Shown here in pieces: positions 329 through 25,907 of a DNA stretch of 38,073 nucleotides. The position numbers were made by a program, and so were the translations under genes. The stretch's first letter is position 1. The number at the start of each line of letters is the position of its first letter. The DNA lies in IMG/VR virus record IMGVR_UViG_3300037882_001175, positions 1 through 38,073 of that record. One strand, 5' to 3'. Origin of the DNA: a virus. The notes beneath the pieces were generated by a model that was not told where the DNA came from, ran no database searches, and worked only from the letters and a program-made list of their open reading frames with translations.

Positions 329-1187
329 CTTGACCCTTTATTTCTGTAAACCTAAAAGAGGTTACAGGCTTCGATCTATATTTATCAAGATCTACATTTT
401 TTAACTCCGGTATGTCAACATATGACACTCTACCTTTAGTCGTTTGCTTTGCAATTCTTACGCCGTTACACTCGCTAGATTGACCCTCACACATCTTGAT
501 AATAGTGTCTCTTAAAAGCTCGTCTTTTGCTTCCAAGAGCTTCATTTCAGCTTTAGTTTGTTTCCATACCTCCAAGTGAAATTGAAGCTCTCTTGAGTCT
601 CTTTTGACGAAATCACGATCACATGCAAGGGGGGGCGTAAAGTCAAGAAGCATTTTAAAAAATTCACGTTCTTTATTAACCATCTTTTCTATAAATTCTA
701 AATCAGGTCTAACCTCTATTATTTTTTGACTTTCTGGAGTATATGAAAAATAATAAGCAATATCAGCTTCAGAAACCCAGAGACAATGTTGAATCTGGCA
801 TAAATAGTAATCTGGGATGATTCCATCTAAAGCTAATTGATGATTTTTTTGACCATTAGCTTTTATTTCAAGTATCTCATTTTTAGAATTCATTCCATCT
901 AAAGAGGCAATAGCCCATTTTTCTTGAGGATGCTCTACAACTATAGGTTCAAAATTACTATCTGTTATTTCATTAAACAACTGGAGTGCAATTGGCTCAA
1001 GATCAACTCCACGTTGCATATTAGAATTCATTTTTTGAGTCTCTCTTAAAGAAAGTTTTTCTTCCCATAATGAAAGTGCGCTAGCCCACGGATTAAGATT
1101 CAAAATTTTTGCGGAATCTGTTCCACTTATTTTTGTTTTTTTCCATTCTATCCATTCAGGACTTCTTTGAATTAAATGTGCTTCCAT
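321..1187 (-). CDS. YqaJ-like viral recombinase / lambda-type 5'-3' exonuclease
   Basis: The protein (288 aa) begins with the YqaJ-family signature: RSPEWIEWKKTKISGTDSAKIL, a conserved motif of about 20 residues in which Arg, W-W and the G-(T)-D/S cluster open the nuclease fold. It is followed by the helix with NPW..LWEEK, a conserved GVDLEP (catalytic Glu in GxxxE), SLDGM (catalytic Asp) and EIKANG (ExK motif), then H-Q-A. These are the metal-binding residues of the PD-(D/E)XK nuclease family to which lambda exonuclease belongs. It resects double-stranded ends to give the single strands used by the annealase. Bet/RecT lies upstream in the same operon, with an HNH gene between them. The start ATG overlaps the end of the HNH ORF by 16 bases, with AAAGG seven bases upstream. 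Length is typical of the family. Confidence 0.88.
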   Translation of the reverse strand: MEAHLIQRSPEWIEWKKTKISGTDSAKILNLNPWASALSLWEEKLSLRETQKMNSNMQRGVDLEPIALQLFNEITDSNFEPIVVEHPQEKWAIASLDGMNSKNEILEIKANGQKNHQLALDGIIPDYYLCQIQHCLWVSEADIAYYFSYTPESQKIIEVRPDLEFIEKMVNKEREFFKMLLDFTPPLACDRDFVKRDSRELQFHLEVWKQTKAEMKLLEAKDELLRDTIIKMCEGQSSECNGVRIAKQTTKGRVSYVDIPELKNVDLDKYRSKPVTSFRFTEIKGQDE

Positions 1188-1945
1188 GTTATACCTTTAA
1201 TTGCTCTTTCTGCTGTTGTATAATTTACTGAAAATAATTTAGCTATTTCAGTAAATGATTTATTTTCAGTTATTCTTAATTTTCTCATTTCTAAAACAAT
1301 TTCAGCAGTTAATTTAGCATTACAATTTCCTTCTCCAGACAAACTTTTTGAAGGAATATTCTCATGTATAATTCTGTTTATATGCCACTGGTGTACCCCA
1401 AATAATTTACCAATATCCCTTTGCCTAATACCTTGATAATGCATATTTATTATTTTTTCACGATCCTCGGTGCATATTTTTCTTTTCTGGATAGGCTGCC
1501 TACCTTTTTTAATCATGTCTTGAGTGTTGTCTTTATGGCTTCCTAAAAACAAATGATCAGGATTAACACAAAATCTATTATCACAAGTATGGCAAACACA
1601 TTTTCCATTTGTTTTTTCGTTTTTTAATAAAATCCAAGATGATTTATGTGCTGTCATAGTTTTTTTATTTAACCAAAATTGTCCATATCCTGTTTCAAAA
1701 TAAGATCCTTTCCAAATCCAACAAGATTCTGATTTATCAACAAACTTTAAAAACCTTTGAACAGGATCTTCAGTTGTTTTGTAACAACCGCAAGAAATTA
1801 TAGGACAATTATTTTTATTAAAATCAGCAGTACACAAAATGCGAGTATTTCCACACTCGCATTTTGCTTTCCAAAATTTATTATAATTATTTCCCGCGTG
1901 AGAAAACTCAATTATTGTTAATAATCCTTTTTTACGTCCAATCAT
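1172..1945 (-). CDS. HNH homing-type endonuclease with C-terminal helix-turn-helix
   Basis: The protein is 257 aa. The N-terminal ~50 residues carry a Cys pattern (KAKCECGN...SCGC) seen in many free-standing phage HNH proteins. The centre holds the nuclease: SCWIWKG, GYGQFW, AHKSSW, then HTCDNRFCVNPDHLFLG, which contains the CxxxxCxNPxHL metal-binding core. The C-terminal ~90 residues look like two helix-turn-helix units (EIVLEMRKLRIT..., SFTEIAKLFSVNYTTAERAIKG). It sits exactly between bet and the exonuclease: its ATG overlaps the bet stop (ATGA) and its end overlaps the exonuclease start by 16 bases. This packing suggests either a domesticated insertion or a very precise one. It is paralogous to the HNH gene at 21668. 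Confidence 0.85.
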   Translation of the reverse strand: MIGRKKGLLTIIEFSHAGNNYNKFWKAKCECGNTRILCTADFNKNNCPIISCGCYKTTEDPVQRFLKFVDKSESCWIWKGSYFETGYGQFWLNKKTMTAHKSSWILLKNEKTNGKCVCHTCDNRFCVNPDHLFLGSHKDNTQDMIKKGRQPIQKRKICTEDREKIINMHYQGIRQRDIGKLFGVHQWHINRIIHENIPSKSLSGEGNCNAKLTAEIVLEMRKLRITENKSFTEIAKLFSVNYTTAERAIKGITWKHI

Positions 1946-3663: not shown

Positions 3664-3735
3664 TCTATCTCGGGGAGGAACACAACTAACTACCCGACTA
3701 GACAATAACACTGCGTTCTAAAGGAACGTGGGGGA

Positions 3736-3872: not shown

Positions 3873-4730
3873 ATGTCAGAATCTATCCAAAATATACTTA
3901 AAGCTCATTTTTCAATTAAAGAAGAAAAAGCAGATCATCATTACAGAACAGAACTTCCAAACATCATTTTTGAACTTCCTTTAGACGCATTTGAATTTAG
4001 GGTTTATGCGTTTATCAAAAAAATAGCTGGTGATAGTGGCGGTTGTTGGATGTCTAAGCCAAATCTTTCTAAAGAATGTGGTATATCAAAAAGAAAAGTT
4101 GATGAATGCATTATAAAATTATGCTCTCCATTTGAAGAGCTTAATGGAAAATCTCTTCTTACTCAAATTTCAAGAGAAAATGAATCAAATGTTTTGATAA
4201 TTACTGATATATGGAGAATAAATGGGGATTACTACAGAGAAAATTCAAAAAAAGATAATGGGTGCACACCGTGCAGGGGGGGGGTGCATGATATGCAGGG
4301 GGGGGGTGCACAACCTGCACCCAAAGAAGAACCATCTAACAAGATCTCTTTAAGAATTGATGATGGAATGAAACCTTCGGTTTCAAAGTTAAAAATTCTT
4401 TTTTTAAATGGAACAGAACAGGAGCTTTCAAAAGAAGATCTTTATTCTTTGGCAGTAACAAGTAGATCAAATTGGGGTGTTTCGGATATTGAATACCTCT
4501 ATGGAAGGCTAGAAACTTATGATGGAAGCCGAATTTCAGACTTAAAAAAACTTTGCGATAAAATTCTGGCTAATAAATCAAAAGCTGATAGAGCAGAAAA
4601 ATATGCAGGTAAAGAAAAATCAAAGGAAAAGCCAAGACCTTCACATGAAAGCATTCCAGTTAAACCATCTCAAAACTTAAGATGTTTCGGAGATGTTTTA
4701 AAAGAGATGGAAAATAAAAAGAAAGCATGA
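3873..4730 (+). CDS. phage replication initiation protein (winged-helix, O-like)
   Basis: The protein is 285 aa. Residues ~30-120 form a winged-helix domain of the phage replication type (LPNIIFELPLDAFEFRVYAF...GGCWMSKPNLSKECGISKRKVDECI). A low-complexity linker follows (TPCRGGVHDMQGGGAQPAP), then a helical C-terminal part that may contact the helicase loader. The linker is encoded by two identical TGCA-G9-TGCA units, so the origin probably lies inside the gene, as in lambda O-type genes. The DnaC-like gene follows 28 bases downstream, which supports an initiator role. Confidence 0.75.
   Translation: MSESIQNILKAHFSIKEEKADHHYRTELPNIIFELPLDAFEFRVYAFIKKIAGDSGGCWMSKPNLSKECGISKRKVDECIIKLCSPFEELNGKSLLTQISRENESNVLIITDIWRINGDYYRENSKKDNGCTPCRGGVHDMQGGGAQPAPKEEPSNKISLRIDDGMKPSVSKLKILFLNGTEQELSKEDLYSLAVTSRSNWGVSDIEYLYGRLETYDGSRISDLKKLCDKILANKSKADRAEKYAGKEKSKEKPRPSHESIPVKPSQNLRCFGDVLKEMENKKKA
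4260..4322. other. candidate replication origin: TGCA/G-tract iterons inside the initiator gene
   Basis: Two identical 17-bp units TGCA-G9-TGCA lie at 4272-4288 and 4294-4310, exactly 22 bp apart (about two helical turns). They are bounded by GGGTGCA at 4260-4266 and its inverse TGCACCC at 4316-4322. Strong G-tracts are foreign to the AT-rich surround. Comparable repeats occur in the linker-coding parts of other phage initiator genes. Origin activity is inferred. Confidence 0.5.
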
Positions 4731-4758: not shown

Positions 4759-5334
4759 ATGACAGAAATAAAATACCCATTTCATGAAGAATATCAAAAA
4801 GCTTCAATGCCTAAGATTATTCAGGAAGATGAAATTATAAATAAATTAAATGCTTGGTATAAAAAACCTCAATACTTATTTTATTTTACCGGTAAAGTTG
4901 GAACAGGTAAAACTTATTTTGCAGCATCTATTTATAATCTTTGTGTTGAAAATAAGGTTAATGTGAGAGCTTTTACCGAAGCTAATTTCTTATCTCATCT
5001 TAGAGAGGGTATGGATAAAATAGACGCTATAGCAGAAGTAAATAGACTTTGTGAATGCGATGTTTTTATTCTTGATGATCTTGGAAGTTCTTCAATGACA
5101 GCTTGGCAAAAAGAGAATCTTTTTACTATGGTTGATATAAGATGTTCCATGAAAAGACCTACATTGATAACCTCAAATCTTTTGAAACAGGATTTACATG
5201 ATACATTTAGCGAACGATTTTCTTCAAGAATTTATGCTGCAAGAAATGTTGTTGTAACTTCAATGGGAGAAGATAGAAGATTGGATATAAACTTTGGCAA
5301 AACAGATTTAACCCCCGAAAATAACCAAAACTAA
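4759..5334 (+). CDS. DnaC-like AAA+ helicase loader
   Basis: The protein is 191 aa. Walker A is GKVGTGKT at residues 45-52, Walker B VFILDDLG at ~102-109, a sensor-1-like TLITSN at ~135-140 and an arginine-containing SERFSSRI at ~151-158. This is the DnaC/IstB-type ATPase layout. Such loaders deliver the host replicative helicase (DnaB) to the origin marked by the phage initiator, which is encoded just upstream. The N-terminal adaptor is short, so the protein is at the small end of the family. Confidence 0.85.
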   Translation: MTEIKYPFHEEYQKASMPKIIQEDEIINKLNAWYKKPQYLFYFTGKVGTGKTYFAASIYNLCVENKVNVRAFTEANFLSHLREGMDKIDAIAEVNRLCECDVFILDDLGSSSMTAWQKENLFTMVDIRCSMKRPTLITSNLLKQDLHDTFSERFSSRIYAARNVVVTSMGEDRRLDINFGKTDLTPENNQN

Positions 5335-15732: not shown

Positions 15733-18700
15733 ATGTCAGTTAATCTTGGAAATATGCCTTCCCAGATACAGCAGAATTATACTAACAAATTACTTTCAAC
15801 ACCTGAAAGAAATTGTATCCATAATCTGTTTGCATCCGTTGTAGAAGTACAAGACAATGACGGTTTTATTAATCGTCAATCGCGCTACGACGCTTTAGAT
15901 ACTTTTGAAGTACCTATTGACAACGCTCAGCTCAACCCTCCCTCACAGTTACTCTCAAGGGTAGATGTTGATTGCAGAGTCCGAAATTATGCCACGTACA
16001 TTGTGCTCACGAGGCAGGTTACTATCACAAACCAAGATCCAATTTTAAATGCCTCCGCAGCTAGGCTTGGACAGGCTTATAAAGAAACTAGTGACGTTCT
16101 GCAAAGGGATAACCTTGAATCCAGTGCGTCAGTTGTAAACTGCGTTGGTGGTTCAAACGGTAGAAGTTTAGTTGCCGTTTTAAAATCAAACCTGATTGAC
16201 TTGGACATCCTCGCTGCTTAAGCAGACGGACAACAGGGCGCAAGCCGGCAGTAATGCCTTGCAGCGTGACAGACTAAGCGGTTTGACCCGATTTATCGGG
16301 ATGCGATAGTCGAAACTATATGGAAACATATAGAGAGGGGAATAACAAGACCCTCCGCTTAAATGATAGAACCTTTGCGATTAAGGACGTGAATATTTTG
16401 AAAAATGCAATCTCTCATAATAAGGACTTCAGCATAATGACTCCGAAAGGTTTCTGTATGCCTAGCGCCTCCATTTTTGAGTGTTGTTTTATCAAATTCA
16501 ATCAACTCCTTACAGACAGGTTTTTTGTAACGAAGAAAATTAATAATGTTTTTAAGAATATAAGAGAGTTGTTTACTGCAAATACGCCAAGCGATTTGAT
16601 TCCTTTGTTTAGGATCTTTTTCATTGCGACCAATAAATCTGTAGTGACCACCAAAACGTTCAACAAGCCATTTAAAGATTGGAAATTTTGTGTTGTTGCA
16701 ATGAATGTAAGCTTTGTAAATATGATTAGGTCGGTTTTTATCGGTATACCTAGTCAAACCAAGGCAACATTCAGCATCAATAAATCCAGAAAGATAGCAG
16801 AAATCCAATTCACTAGGTACCTTAGAAAATTCGATATTATTGAGAAGTTCAATGGACTCTCTTTTGATAAGATTTTCAGAATGTTTAAGATCTCTAATTC
16901 TATTAAAACAAAACTCCCTTTCTTCTTTACAAGTAGACTTAATAGATCGCAAAAAAGTTTTAGCTTCTTCCAATTTTTCGACAAGGTAAGGAAGGATCTT
17001 TTCACTAAGATCAATAGCTTTCTTACCAGTAAGAGAAAAATGGTATTGAGTTTTATGTGTAACGATAAGATCGCTAGAAATTCTAACAGTACCTCCAAAT
17101 TCATTGGAGAAAAACTCAAGGATTTCTTTATCGGTAGAAGAGATAATAAAAGAGTGAATGTATTTAACATTTCCAGTTCTTTTGTTGATTGTCTTACCAA
17201 TAAAAAAACAGCCATCTCCGTCAACATATCCAGCGCAATAAGAAGCAATTTGTTTTGTATTCATGATGATAAGTCTAATACAAACAAGCATTTAAGTCAA
17301 CAAAGTAATAGAGTGGACCTTCCGACAGAAATGGCACTAAGTGATCTTGATGAAATTGTAGCATTGCTACAAACAAATGACGGTGAGTATATTACAAATA
17401 TGATTGATGCTTCAACAAAGATCGGTACATCACCTTTGGGCGATGCGTATTCGATGATGTGTCACTCACGAATGATTCCTGTTTTAAATAACATTACAGG
17501 TTTTAGACGTAAGTTTGAATATGGAACAGGCTCGATTAATACTCTATCCAGTGAATGGGGTGGTGTTAATAATATCCGTGCTTTTATTTCATCTCAAGGT
17601 TCAATAAGCGCTAGTGCATCATTACTTGGTAATGATATTGCAAACTGCTTTATTTCAGCGTATGAGGGTTACAAAGTTGTATTCCAAGCAGGCGGAAGAG
17701 CTAAGTATATTTATACACCACCAGGCGTATTAAATGACCCAGCGCACCTGCGCCACGCGGCAGCATGCTCGTTTAACAGAAAGGACGAGGGTAAATTTTC
17801 CCTGATTGACTTGGAAACCTACTGTCATGCTATTGCAGCATGATTATGGCAACAAGGGGCAAGTAATATTATAATGAATATTGTGTAATATTCATATCCG
17901 CTGTATAACGTATACCATCATAAACGATGGAGATAAATTATGCAAAGAATATGTAAGTTATGCAAAGTAGAAAAACCTTTAGAGGAATTTAGAAGAAACA
18001 AAAGAAATCAACTTGGTAGAGATTGGCAATGTAAGAAGTGTCGATATGAAATACAATCGAGACCTTACTACCTAGCCAATAAAGAAAAGTGTCACAAGAC
18101 AAATAGTGAATGGGCAAAAAGAAATAGAGAAGCAATAAACGATAGAGTAAGAAAAGATTATGAGAAAAATCCTAAAAAGTATGATGAAAGAAATAAAGCA
18201 TACAATGAAAAGACAGGATATAAAGCAAAACATGAAAAAGAATATCGTGAAAAGAATAGAGAAAAAGATAGAGCCCAAAAAAAACTACGTGACCATGTTA
18301 AACGAGGAAATATCGTTAGACCAACCAAGTGTTCTGTTTGTAATTTTGAAGGAAAAATTGAAGGACATCATGCAGATTATACAAAACCCTTACAAGTTAT
18401 TTGGGTTTGTAGAAAATGTCATATGATGTTTCATAGAAGGACTTATAATATTACGGCCTGAGAGACTGAGCGGGAGAAATGCGAAAGCATATGCGACAGT
18501 CCAACCTAGTGAGGAAACCACTAGAGGGATCTCCGAAGAGGGAACCCCGCCGTAGAAATACGGTCAGTAGGCTGACAACCGAAAGTAATAGTTCGCTATC
18601 AAGGTCAATGCATTAAGTATAAACGACTTACAACGTTAGTGCATTTAAAACCTTCTCTGATTGACATGGAAGCCCGATGGGGTGACATGGCGCAAGCGAA

Positions 18701-21667: not shown

Positions 21668-22333
21668 ATGCCAATAAAATTAAATTGTGTTACATGTGAA
21701 AAAGAGTTTTATGTTGATCCATATAGGATTAAGGAAAATGCGAGATTTTGTAGCAAGAAATGTTTTCAAATTCAAATAGCAAGCAAATATATCTTTAATT
21801 GTAAGAATTGCGAAAAAGAACATATTGCATTTGGTTATACAGAGGGACGTAAGAAATATTGTTCAAGGTTATGTATGGAAGAATTTAGAACTCCAACACT
21901 TGAAAAGCTTGTAAAGAATAATTATGAAGTTAAAGAAAACGGATGTTGGGAGTGGACTAATTCGATATCTTCACAAACAGGATATGGAAAACTTGTTTTT
22001 AAAGGTTTAGATATGAGCGCACACAGAGCTTCTTATATACTTTTTAAAGGTAAAATACCTAAAGGAAAATATATTTGTCATTCTTGCGATAATAAGAAGT
22101 GTGTAAATCCAGATCATTTATGGGTAGGTACACAAAAAGAAAATATGCAAGATATGATTAAGAAGGGCAGGAAGGCATGTCAGAAAGGGAAAAGACACAG
22201 CGTGGAAACAATAAAAAAAATTAGTGATGCAAAAAAGGGATCTAAAGGATATTGGACTGGAAAAAGAAGAAGTGAAGAAACAAGGAGAAAAATAAGTGAA
22301 ACAAAAAGAAAGAGGAGTGACGCAAGTCACTAA
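21668..22333 (+). CDS. free-standing HNH endonuclease with NUMOD-like tail
   Basis: The protein is 221 aa, with AAGGGG before the ATG. Two Cys-rich N-terminal segments (NCVTCEKEF, FCSKKCF, NCKNCEKEH, YCSRLC) precede the HNH core (CWEWTN, TGYGK, AHRASY, CHSCDNKKCVNPDHLWVG). The C-terminus has NUMOD3-type repeats (KRHSVETIKKISDAKKGS, RRSEETRRKISETKR) that bind DNA. It shares its nuclease core with the HNH at 1172, also ending in QDMIKKGR. It lies between adaptor and tail genes and is flanked by no recognisable intron core. Confidence 0.85.
   Translation: MPIKLNCVTCEKEFYVDPYRIKENARFCSKKCFQIQIASKYIFNCKNCEKEHIAFGYTEGRKKYCSRLCMEEFRTPTLEKLVKNNYEVKENGCWEWTNSISSQTGYGKLVFKGLDMSAHRASYILFKGKIPKGKYICHSCDNKKCVNPDHLWVGTQKENMQDMIKKGRKACQKGKRHSVETIKKISDAKKGSKGYWTGKRRSEETRRKISETKRKRSDASH
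22316..22331. other. GNRA-capped hairpin at the HNH stop
   Basis: AGTGAC-GCAA-GTCACT is a 6-bp stem with a GCAA tetraloop, overlapping the HNH stop codon and just before the next ATG. Such capped stems are typical of structured RNAs. It may be a remnant or a processing signal. Confidence 0.35.
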
Positions 22334-22954: not shown

Positions 22955-25503
22955 TGCAATCAATTGATATATCAGGTTTTAACTCAGGCGCACAAAAGAA
23001 AAATAAAAAGCCGTTTTTGCTTGTTGATGATGCTTTTCAAGAGCTAAAAAATGCTTATGTTTGGCGTGAAGAAGTTAAAAAACGTGAGGGGATGCAATTC
23101 ATTGGAAGATTTAGACGTGTTTTTTCTGCGGCTTCTATTGGTAATTCTGGGGCATCACCTTGGACAATCAATACCCTTTACTCGACTTATGTCCCGGCTA
23201 TTGTATCGGAAGCAACAGCCGAAATAGAGCCTGGTAGTGTTATTATTACGATTGGTGCTATCACATTTACAGATCAAGGCAATGGATTACTTACAGGCTC
23301 AGTAGTCGGAAATAGTGGTTGGATTGATTATCTAACTGGGATTGTAACGTTGACCCATACAGCAGGTGCAGGCGTTGCATCTACTGCATCTTTAAATTAT
23401 TATCCGACGTTGCCAGCTATGGGGATTTGGGTTAGAGAAATACCTGGTATCAATGACGAGGAAACAATTTGGTTTGATACAAAGTATGCTTATAAAGTTG
23501 TAGGTGGCGACTTTCAAGAGTTTTTAACTCCAAGTGTCACATGGGATGGAACAGATTCAGACTTTTTCTGGTGTACAAATTACAGTGGTTCCGACTCTTC
23601 AAGAAGATTGTTTTTTGAAACAAACTTTACATTAAGTGCTGGCTCTCCAATGCGATATACCGATGGTATTACGTGGACAACGTTTCAACCTATTGTTGCG
23701 GCAGCACTTCCAACTTATTTATTTACTGCTCGTATTTTAATTCCATATTACGGTCGATTGTTAGCTTTAAATACCTATGAAGGTGACAATATTGGTACAG
23801 CTAGAAACTTCTTTTCAAGATGCCGTTTTTCACAAATTGGTAGCCCTGTTCAAGCGGACGCATGGCAATCTGATATTTTTGGTAAAGGTGGCTTTATTGA
23901 TGCCCCTACAAATGAAGAAATTATATCTGCAACATTTTATAAAAATACATTGATTGTACAGTTTGAGCGTTCCACGTGGCGTTTACAATATGTCGGAGAA
24001 TATGGAATACCTTTTCTTTGGGAGCGTATATCGTCTGATTTTGGTTCTGAATCTACTTTTTCTACGGTTTTATTCGACAATGGGGTTTTGGCTGTTGCTG
24101 ATAAGGCTATTGTTGTAAGCTCTGGCGGTGATGTAAAGCGTATTGATTTAGATATACCGGATTTAGTTTACGACTTCTTAAATTCTGACAACGGCGTAAA
24201 ACGAGTACAAGGTATACGAGACTTTAAAAAAGAAATAGTTTATTGGTGTTATCCTAATTTTAACACTTTATATACTGGTCAATATTTTCCCAACGAAACA
24301 GTTATTTATAATTATCGAAATAATACATATGCTTTTTTTAGAAATAATGTCACTTGTTATGGTAACTTTCAGTATGATGTTAATATTACATGGGACAGGC
24401 TAGATGTATACTGGGATAGCTACCAAGTTGGTTGGGATGATGTAGGACAAGCAAAATTGCCTTTAATAGTTTCAGGCAACCAACAAGGATTTGGGCATTT
24501 CTACGGTTACCCAGATGTCGAGGCTCTAGCAGATAGCTCAATTGACGCATTAGATCAAGAAAGCCTTTCAGTTACCGCTGTTACCGTTGGCGTAGATGTT
24601 GTTTTAACAATAAAGAATCACAATCTACAGAATGATGAAATCATTTATTTGACTGGGTTAAATTATGTTGTAACAACATCACCTGCAACTTTAGGATCAA
24701 CAACGCTAAATGACCAAATCTACATGGTGCAAATTGTTGACCTTAACAATGTTAGATTGTTTAAATGGGATCAGACACAAAAACAATTTTATACTAATTT
24801 TACAGTGACAAATGTTGGCGATTATGTTGGCGGTGGTTTAGTTGCTTTATTTCCTAGGGTTTATATACAAACTAAAGATTTTAACCCTGCAAAACAGATC
24901 GGACAAAATATATTATGTAACTCAATTGATTTTCTTTTTGATGCTACAGTGCCAGCTCCAATGAATGTACAGTTACAAATGAATACAAAGTTAGCAGTTC
25001 AAGCAAATGTTTTAGATGATTTAACAAATAGATTTATCGGTAATCAAAATATAGAACAATCAAATAGTAAAACTGGATATGTGCAAAACGTTACAACTGG
25101 AATAGGTGCTAATCCTTGTGTCATAACAAGTACTCAACATGGGCTATTAAATAATGACGAAGTAAGCTTTCAGCAAATAGGAGGCACAACAAATTTAAAT
25201 GGTATTAACTATGTTGTAACTTTTATAGACGTAAATAACTTTAGCATTGGTGTTGACGCTACAGGGTACACAGCATATACACAAGGTGGTTATTGGGTAC
25301 AAAGCAAGCAACAATATTATACTTTAAGCTCTAAATATGCTTGGCATCGCTTCTTTGCTAACGCCTATGGTCAATATATGTCAGTAGTCATAACAAATAA
25401 CGATGAGCAGATGGCTCAACTTAGCACGCATCAACAAAACTTTGTATTAAACGCCATGAAGATTAGCTTTAGACCTGCTGGCACTAACATTTTTGGTAAA
25501 TAA
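22951..25503 (+). CDS. tail hub / nozzle-like protein (P22 gp10 or T7 gp12-like position)
   Basis: The protein is 850 aa. The N-terminus (IDISGFNSGAQKKNKKPFLL, LKNAYVWREEVKKREGMQFI) matches the opening seen in podovirus tail-tube or nozzle proteins (NAYVWR...KREG). Residues ~95-150 hold a beta module (ITFTDQGNGLLTGSVVGNSG, WIDYLTGIVTLT) shared with the adaptor. The middle repeats the beta-propeller pattern (TFYKNTLIVQFERSTWRLQ). Residues ~535-640 and ~705-790 are two FCCH-like beta domains (HNLQNDEIIYLTGLNYVV and HGLLNNDEVSFQQIGG...GINYVV). It likely forms the tail tube through which DNA passes. Confidence 0.7.
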   Translation: MMQSIDISGFNSGAQKKNKKPFLLVDDAFQELKNAYVWREEVKKREGMQFIGRFRRVFSAASIGNSGASPWTINTLYSTYVPAIVSEATAEIEPGSVIITIGAITFTDQGNGLLTGSVVGNSGWIDYLTGIVTLTHTAGAGVASTASLNYYPTLPAMGIWVREIPGINDEETIWFDTKYAYKVVGGDFQEFLTPSVTWDGTDSDFFWCTNYSGSDSSRRLFFETNFTLSAGSPMRYTDGITWTTFQPIVAAALPTYLFTARILIPYYGRLLALNTYEGDNIGTARNFFSRCRFSQIGSPVQADAWQSDIFGKGGFIDAPTNEEIISATFYKNTLIVQFERSTWRLQYVGEYGIPFLWERISSDFGSESTFSTVLFDNGVLAVADKAIVVSSGGDVKRIDLDIPDLVYDFLNSDNGVKRVQGIRDFKKEIVYWCYPNFNTLYTGQYFPNETVIYNYRNNTYAFFRNNVTCYGNFQYDVNITWDRLDVYWDSYQVGWDDVGQAKLPLIVSGNQQGFGHFYGYPDVEALADSSIDALDQESLSVTAVTVGVDVVLTIKNHNLQNDEIIYLTGLNYVVTTSPATLGSTTLNDQIYMVQIVDLNNVRLFKWDQTQKQFYTNFTVTNVGDYVGGGLVALFPRVYIQTKDFNPAKQIGQNILCNSIDFLFDATVPAPMNVQLQMNTKLAVQANVLDDLTNRFIGNQNIEQSNSKTGYVQNVTTGIGANPCVITSTQHGLLNNDEVSFQQIGGTTNLNGINYVVTFIDVNNFSIGVDATGYTAYTQGGYWVQSKQQYYTLSSKYAWHRFFANAYGQYMSVVITNNDEQMAQLSTHQQNFVLNAMKISFRPAGTNIFGK

Positions 25504-25907
25504 TGGCACAACATTTAAATTTATACAAAACATTCAACATACACGAGAACACACCTGTAGGTTTTTATAAACAATTAAATGAAGAATTCTTTTTTGATTT
25601 TGACCCATGCCCACCAAATCCTGAATTTGGTGGATTAAAAAAAGATTGGAATGGAAATATTTACATCAATCCTCCTTATGGAAAAGCTATTCGAAGATGG
25701 CTTGAAAAAGCGTTAGAAGAGATTAAAAAAGGAAATGCAAAAACTTGTGTATTTCTTTTACCTTCATATACCGATGTTAAATGGTTTCATGAAATAGTTT
25801 TGCCAAACGCTAATGAAATCAGATTTATAAAAGGGAGGTTAAAATTTGGGGATCATAAACAAAGCGCACCTTTTGCAAATGTGTTAGTAATTTTTAAAGG
25901 TAAATAA
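25503..25907 (+). CDS. phage N6-adenine DNA methyltransferase (Dam-like)
   Basis: The protein is 134 aa, short as usual for the phage Dam family (DNA N-6-adenine-methyltransferase type). The order DFDPCPPNPEFGG (residues 32-44), INPPYG (55-60, catalytic NPPY) and the C-terminal KGRLKFGDHKQSAPFANVLV is characteristic. It methylates adenine at a short site and can protect phage DNA from restriction. It begins in the last base of the tail-hub stop, so it is coexpressed with late genes. Confidence 0.88.
   Translation: MAQHLNLYKTFNIHENTPVGFYKQLNEEFFFDFDPCPPNPEFGGLKKDWNGNIYINPPYGKAIRRWLEKALEEIKKGNAKTCVFLLPSYTDVKWFHEIVLPNANEIRFIKGRLKFGDHKQSAPFANVLVIFKGK

Follow-up and report, generated by a model that had tools for sequence, protein, structure and literature searches.

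The segment from 4260 to 4322 of this viral DNA is, with high probability, the initiator-binding part of a phage replication origin, and it lies inside the coding sequence of the initiator itself. This reading rests on the position of an iteron array within the linker of the initiator, on the presence of a helicase loader gene next door, and on the precedents of phage lambda and plasmid pSK41. The window (the whole stretch of DNA analyzed, 38,073 bases) is a virus record that also carries a P22-like portal gene, a terminase gene and RecT/YqaJ recombination genes. An origin of this type is of a known kind; the site and the protein lineage are new, and a literature search, in which few subscription papers were covered, returned no description of TGCA iterons in HTH_36 initiators.

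The initiator gene (3873–4730, plus strand) encodes a 285-aa protein whose residues 41–80 match HTH_36 (PF13730, E 4.7e-6) at 26.7 bits, against a curated cut-off of 25. At an E value of 0.01 this is the only Pfam match, and the RepA_N domain was not matched. Weak matches were found to phrog_270 (E 4.7e-5) and to the O-like families phrog_8540 (E 1.5e-4) and phrog_678 (E 6e-4). The AlphaFold2 (AF2) model comprises a confident N-terminal winged HTH (residues ~31–118), a low-confidence linker (residues 128–167; pLDDT about 46–65 across residues 121–170) and a helical C-terminal part. In this model the array is encoded at residues ~130–151, inside the disordered linker, which is where the initial annotation had placed it. 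A structure search with the model retrieved many winged-HTH proteins, including the initiator Rep–DNA entries 4pt7 and 5kbj (Z 7.4–8.0), a likeness that may reflect no more than a shared fold. The next gene (4759–5334, plus strand) encodes a 191-aa DnaC-like AAA+ helicase loader with matches to IstB_IS21 (5e-11), Bac_DnaA (1e-6) and phrog_50 (2.6e-29).

With respect to other genes of the window, a LAGLIDADG homing endonuclease (PF00961, E 3e-10) is encoded at 16359–17291 on the minus strand, opposite a plus-strand ORF (16320–17843) downstream of the portal gene, and could be a mobile insertion there. Homing endonuclease genes of the HNH_3/NUMOD3 type are located at 21668–22333 (plus strand) and 1172–1945 (minus strand, a weak match), so that this phage may carry several such enzymes. 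A Dam-like DNA N6-adenine methyltransferase domain (PF05869, E 6e-15) is encoded at 25503–25907.

Within the array, a repeat search identified three 22-bp units (repeat family D1) starting at 4260, 4282 and 4304 and spanning 4260–4325. Each contains the dyad TGCA-N5-TGCA, with the paired TGCA motifs at 4263/4272, 4285/4294 and 4307/4316; in the unit as defined together with relatives, the dyad is flanked by GG and CC. Iteron 1 (4260–4278) reads GGGTGCA-CACCG-TGCAGGG, iteron 2 (4282–4300) reads GGGTGCA-TGATA-TGCAGGG, and iteron 3 (4304–4322) reads GGGTGCA-CAACC-TGCACCC, with both arms perfectly inverted. The spacers that join dyads 1 and 2 (4276–4284, plus strand) and dyads 2 and 3 (4298–4306, plus strand) are G9 runs, the only two in the 38 kb, and for duplex stability over 50 bp the array ranks at the 0.01st percentile, so that the description of these repeats as outliers was borne out. 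The initial annotation had described two TGCA-G9-TGCA units 22 bp apart, framed by an inverted GGGTGCA/TGCACCC pair. The frame is present (GGGTGCA at 4260 and TGCACCC at 4316–4322), and both units are exact, as TGCAGGGGG occurs at 4272 and 4294 and has no other exact match in the window; the true units are three in number, however, and are TGCA-N5-TGCA dyads.

That the array is more than a consequence of the peptide it encodes is evident from its relation to the reading frame. A peptide repeat cannot account for it, since a period of 22 bp is not a multiple of 3. The three dyads fall in codon phases 0, 1 and 2, and the peptides read from them (GCTPCR, GVHDMQ and GAQPAP, respectively) are unrelated. 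When synonymous codons for the same peptide were resampled at the codon usage of the window, three dyads arose in only 82 of 200,000 draws, and two G9 runs in only 2 of 200,000. These observations bear directly on the possibility that selection acts on the protein, on a linker that is Gly-rich or of low complexity and serves flexibility or protein contacts, with the DNA repeat as a by-product. The location of the array in a disordered linker is in keeping with such a role, and some matches of our pattern scans are plain low-complexity proteins (e.g. L169 and L227). Nevertheless, given the three frames, the unrelated peptides, the rarity of the array among synonymous sequences and the behavior of relatives described below, we regard this explanation as very improbable.

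The one close relative found for the window initiator, from locus L006, shares 43% identity with it over residues 9–150 and is likewise followed by an AAA+ loader gene. Its linker also contains three dyads, spaced by 22 and 23 bp, in codon phases 1, 2 and 1. The difference from phases 0, 1 and 2 in the window indicates that it is the DNA, and not the peptide, that is conserved; the expectation that the repeats would be present in relatives with the same protein thus holds in the one case available. A single-protein scan of viral contigs with the window initiator returned no relatives, a profile built from the window and L006 proteins retrieved L006 alone, and searches of annotated phage proteins with either protein gave no matches.

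Beyond this pair, the same dyad array was found in the initiator linker of at least about 40 distinct phage or prophage loci. These came from pattern scans covering viral contigs and prokaryote genomes, in which many of the genome matches are chance or low-complexity hits. Among the matches listed, HTH_36 was matched by 37 of 54 array-bearing ORFs and phrog_270, a 'replication initiation protein' family, by 38 of 54. For the 42 arrays in initiator ORFs among those matches, more than one codon phase is used by 28, and neighboring units share a phase in only 21 of 90 pairs and differ in 69, a further point against a protein feature. All phases are occupied, if unequally (99, 36 and 17 units), as would be expected because Cys codons and stops are avoided. 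The commonest spacings are 22 bp (36) and 23 bp (19), counts to be read with the fact that the scan pattern itself fixed N5 and a 7–12-bp gap for at least one pair; this mode agrees with the two-turn, same-face spacing first suggested for the window. Judged by sequence, the array is kept at the DNA level whatever its codon phase. The disordered linker would tolerate any peptide, and DNA could therefore hold its register while the frame slips. Selection on DNA would here override coding, with one site read in three frames of a single gene.

The same 42 arrays bear on whether the repeats arose recently by slippage or duplication and have no function. Identity of the N5 core is 0.67 within an array and 0.31 between phages, which is what duplication would yield; the pattern looks like homogenization of the array, or else the center of the dyad is relevant to specificity. 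Set against a mere artefact is the retention of dyad, spacing and position by independent arrays in very different phages, together with the persistence of the array in L006 at 43% protein identity, and we give this explanation very little weight.

Comparison with relatives also clarifies which part of the repeat matters. Spacers between dyads are pure G in 7 of 90 cases, pure C in 4 and mixed in the rest, so the G9 sequence joining dyads 1 and 2 of the window is without conservation. Exact TGCA-G9-TGCA occurs in five contigs, among them L004, in which the dyads are of N6 type and no initiator ORF was found. The recurring unit is the TGCA-N5-TGCA dyad, and the G9 tract is the spacer that joins dyads; the G tract therefore loses the place as recognized unit that the initial annotation gave it. 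The same data weigh on a functional role for G-quadruplexes at the origin, also raised at that time. The two G9 runs and a GGG might in principle suffice for one, yet the dyads persist in relatives where the spacers are mixed, and G runs, where present, may lie on the coding strand or on its complement, leaving a quadruplex element highly unlikely. A looser pattern, TGCAGGGG-N0-6-GGTGCA, was discarded, as it returned mostly chance matches in unrelated genes.

As the 54 array-bearing ORFs had been chosen by DNA pattern, a second sample was chosen by protein profile alone, using phrog_270 over 150 and 149 genomes from two phyla. An array was called when its tandem-array score exceeded those of all codon shuffles. 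By this measure, a tandem array with a 17–27-bp period is present in 20 of 54 protein-selected initiator ORFs and in 2 of 150 control ORFs (Fisher p 2e-11). Both of these control ORFs belong to locus L378, in which the longest ORF, taken as the initiator, scored 0 and the profile-matched initiator ORF scores 29; the control arrays are thus very likely the initiator's own array read in other frames. The 20 of 54 is a conservative count, because the initiator ORF was chosen by length. Over half of the protein-selected initiators have no array by this score, and the layout is not universal.

None of 30 profile-confirmed initiators in the protein-selected sample contains two TGCA dyads, from which it follows that the TGCA site is that of one lineage among several. 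Other lineages have different, often palindromic sites that are often ~22 bp apart, such as GTGTCAC..GTGACAC in mEp013 and CTGACC..GGTCAG in L400. Most of the named phages selected for a similar protein (mEp013, MD8, U7, Cumys, VPBES and others) have linker arrays of other sequences. Linker arrays are also found in plasmids with related initiators, namely pDSM4216 (22-bp unit, L435, 3533–3644) and a Thermaerobacter plasmid (23-bp unit, with a ParB gene adjoining). The records of mEp013, MD8, U7, Cumys, VPBES and pDSM4216 hold no origin annotation for these arrays.

In terms of DNA unwinding, the 50 bp on the 3′ side of the array (4323–4372) form a candidate element, and their A+T content (70%, versus 69% for the gene) means that the window lacks a distinct A+T-rich element. 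Across the DNA-selected set, 3′ flanks of 50 bp average 61.5% A+T as compared with 49.4% in the rest of the gene (p 3e-8), with no enrichment on the 5′ side; the protein-selected set gave 53% versus 45% for the 3′ flank (p 9e-6). The 3′ flanks of relatives also contain direct 12-bp repeats (119 lag-12 positions, versus 0.6 in shuffles). Repeats of the GAACCAGTCAnT type follow the iterons within an A+T-rich stretch in, for example, L220, L230, L237, L054 and L364, and the window has no 12-bp repeats like these. As 11 of 13 cases keep one frame and 2 do not, the 12-bp repeats are possibly a DNA element or possibly an EPVxEPV protein motif. GC skew was rejected as evidence for an origin in the window, where its minimum (3979) coincides with a switch between divergent transcription units. 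A trial on plasmid pDSM4216 placed the minimum at 3672, 28 bp past the array, and masking the array moved it to 1903.

A more substantial alternative is that the array is an operator at which the initiator or a repressor shuts off transcription through its own gene, with replication starting elsewhere. Tandem dyads bound by a winged-HTH protein could serve as a roadblock, and transcription regulators are numerous among the nearest PDB folds. An operator would not readily explain why the linker position, ~390 bp into the gene, recurs across initiator lineages despite changing sites, or why the 3′ flank is A+T-rich in relatives; moreover, the characterized precedents of this layout are origins (PMC5043065, PMC5703833). 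We therefore consider a purely regulatory site unlikely, somewhat less so than the other alternatives, and binding could serve both roles.

Returning to the origin, the features described above are consistent with a mechanism in which dimers of the 285-aa protein would bind the three TGCA-N5-TGCA dyads through the N-terminal winged HTH. Placed about two helical turns apart, the dyads would lie on one face of the DNA, and the resulting initiator complex would bend the DNA and open nearby A+T-rich DNA, most likely on the 3′ side. The DnaC-like protein encoded by the next gene would then recruit the host DnaB helicase. It is by analogy with lambda O and pSK41 RepA that we infer binding by the 285-aa protein and its occupancy of the sites as dimers, as well as melting, loading of the helicase and activity as an origin. 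Taken together, the HTH_36/O-like initiator, the adjoining loader, the retention of the array at the DNA level, its recurrence and the parallels to oriLambda and pSK41 favor the iteron-type origin within the initiator gene that was originally proposed, and provide a concrete origin prediction for an uncultured phage.

We also lean, by a modest degree, toward a more general proposal. Specifically, phage HTH_36-type initiators may widely follow a modular rule, in which lineage-specific dyad iterons are set in any frame within the disordered linker of the initiator, usually ahead of A+T-rich DNA with 12-bp repeats, and the specificity domain and its cognate origin travel as one self-contained cassette. 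If true, the initiator genes of uncultured phages would reveal their origins directly, and our results suggest that for many such phages with this initiator type the origin is predictable from the initiator linker. Pairs of initiator domains and iterons across lineages would also offer a natural data set for the evolution of initiator specificity. The layout known from lambda is frequent here across a much broader family of phage initiators.

Among known systems, oriLambda lies inside the O gene, where inverted iterons bind O dimers (PMC5043065; PMC7466680). In lambda and the Stx phages, as here, the iterons are tandem inverted repeats set midway along the initiator gene, and a neighboring gene serves the helicase-loading step; an A+T-rich flank is a further shared feature in most of the relatives studied here. 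The two layouts differ in that the window has three TGCA-N5-TGCA dyads with a 22–23-bp spacing, whereas lambda has four to six iterons of 19 bp; the initiator here is of the HTH_36/phrog_270 type and matches O-like profiles weakly, a DnaC-like AAA+ protein takes the place of P as loader, and the window is without a distinct A+T-rich element. The pSK41 rep gene, a proven in-gene origin, contains four Rep boxes, repeats to which the winged-HTH N-terminus of its product binds, and the central region of its protein is an origin-encoded linker that is dispensable (PMC5703833). This RepA_N initiator resembles the window protein in its winged-HTH N-terminus (4pt7, 5kbj; Z ~7–8) and in the central position of the repeats within the gene, and differs in that our protein has no RepA_N Pfam match, the iteron sequence is another one, and the host replicon is a phage and not a plasmid. 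The Rep protein of pPR9 supports autonomous replication and has an N-terminal HTH of pfam13730, the same Pfam family as the N-terminal domain here; in pPR9 this domain and the origin region were exchanged together (PMC5703833). It is a plasmid chimera with a pSK41 C-terminus. Finally, mEp013, MD8, U7, Cumys, VPBES and pDSM4216 have the same phrog_270/O-like HTH type of initiator with linker arrays of ~17–24-bp units, usually with A+T-rich DNA downstream and each with an iteron sequence of its own.
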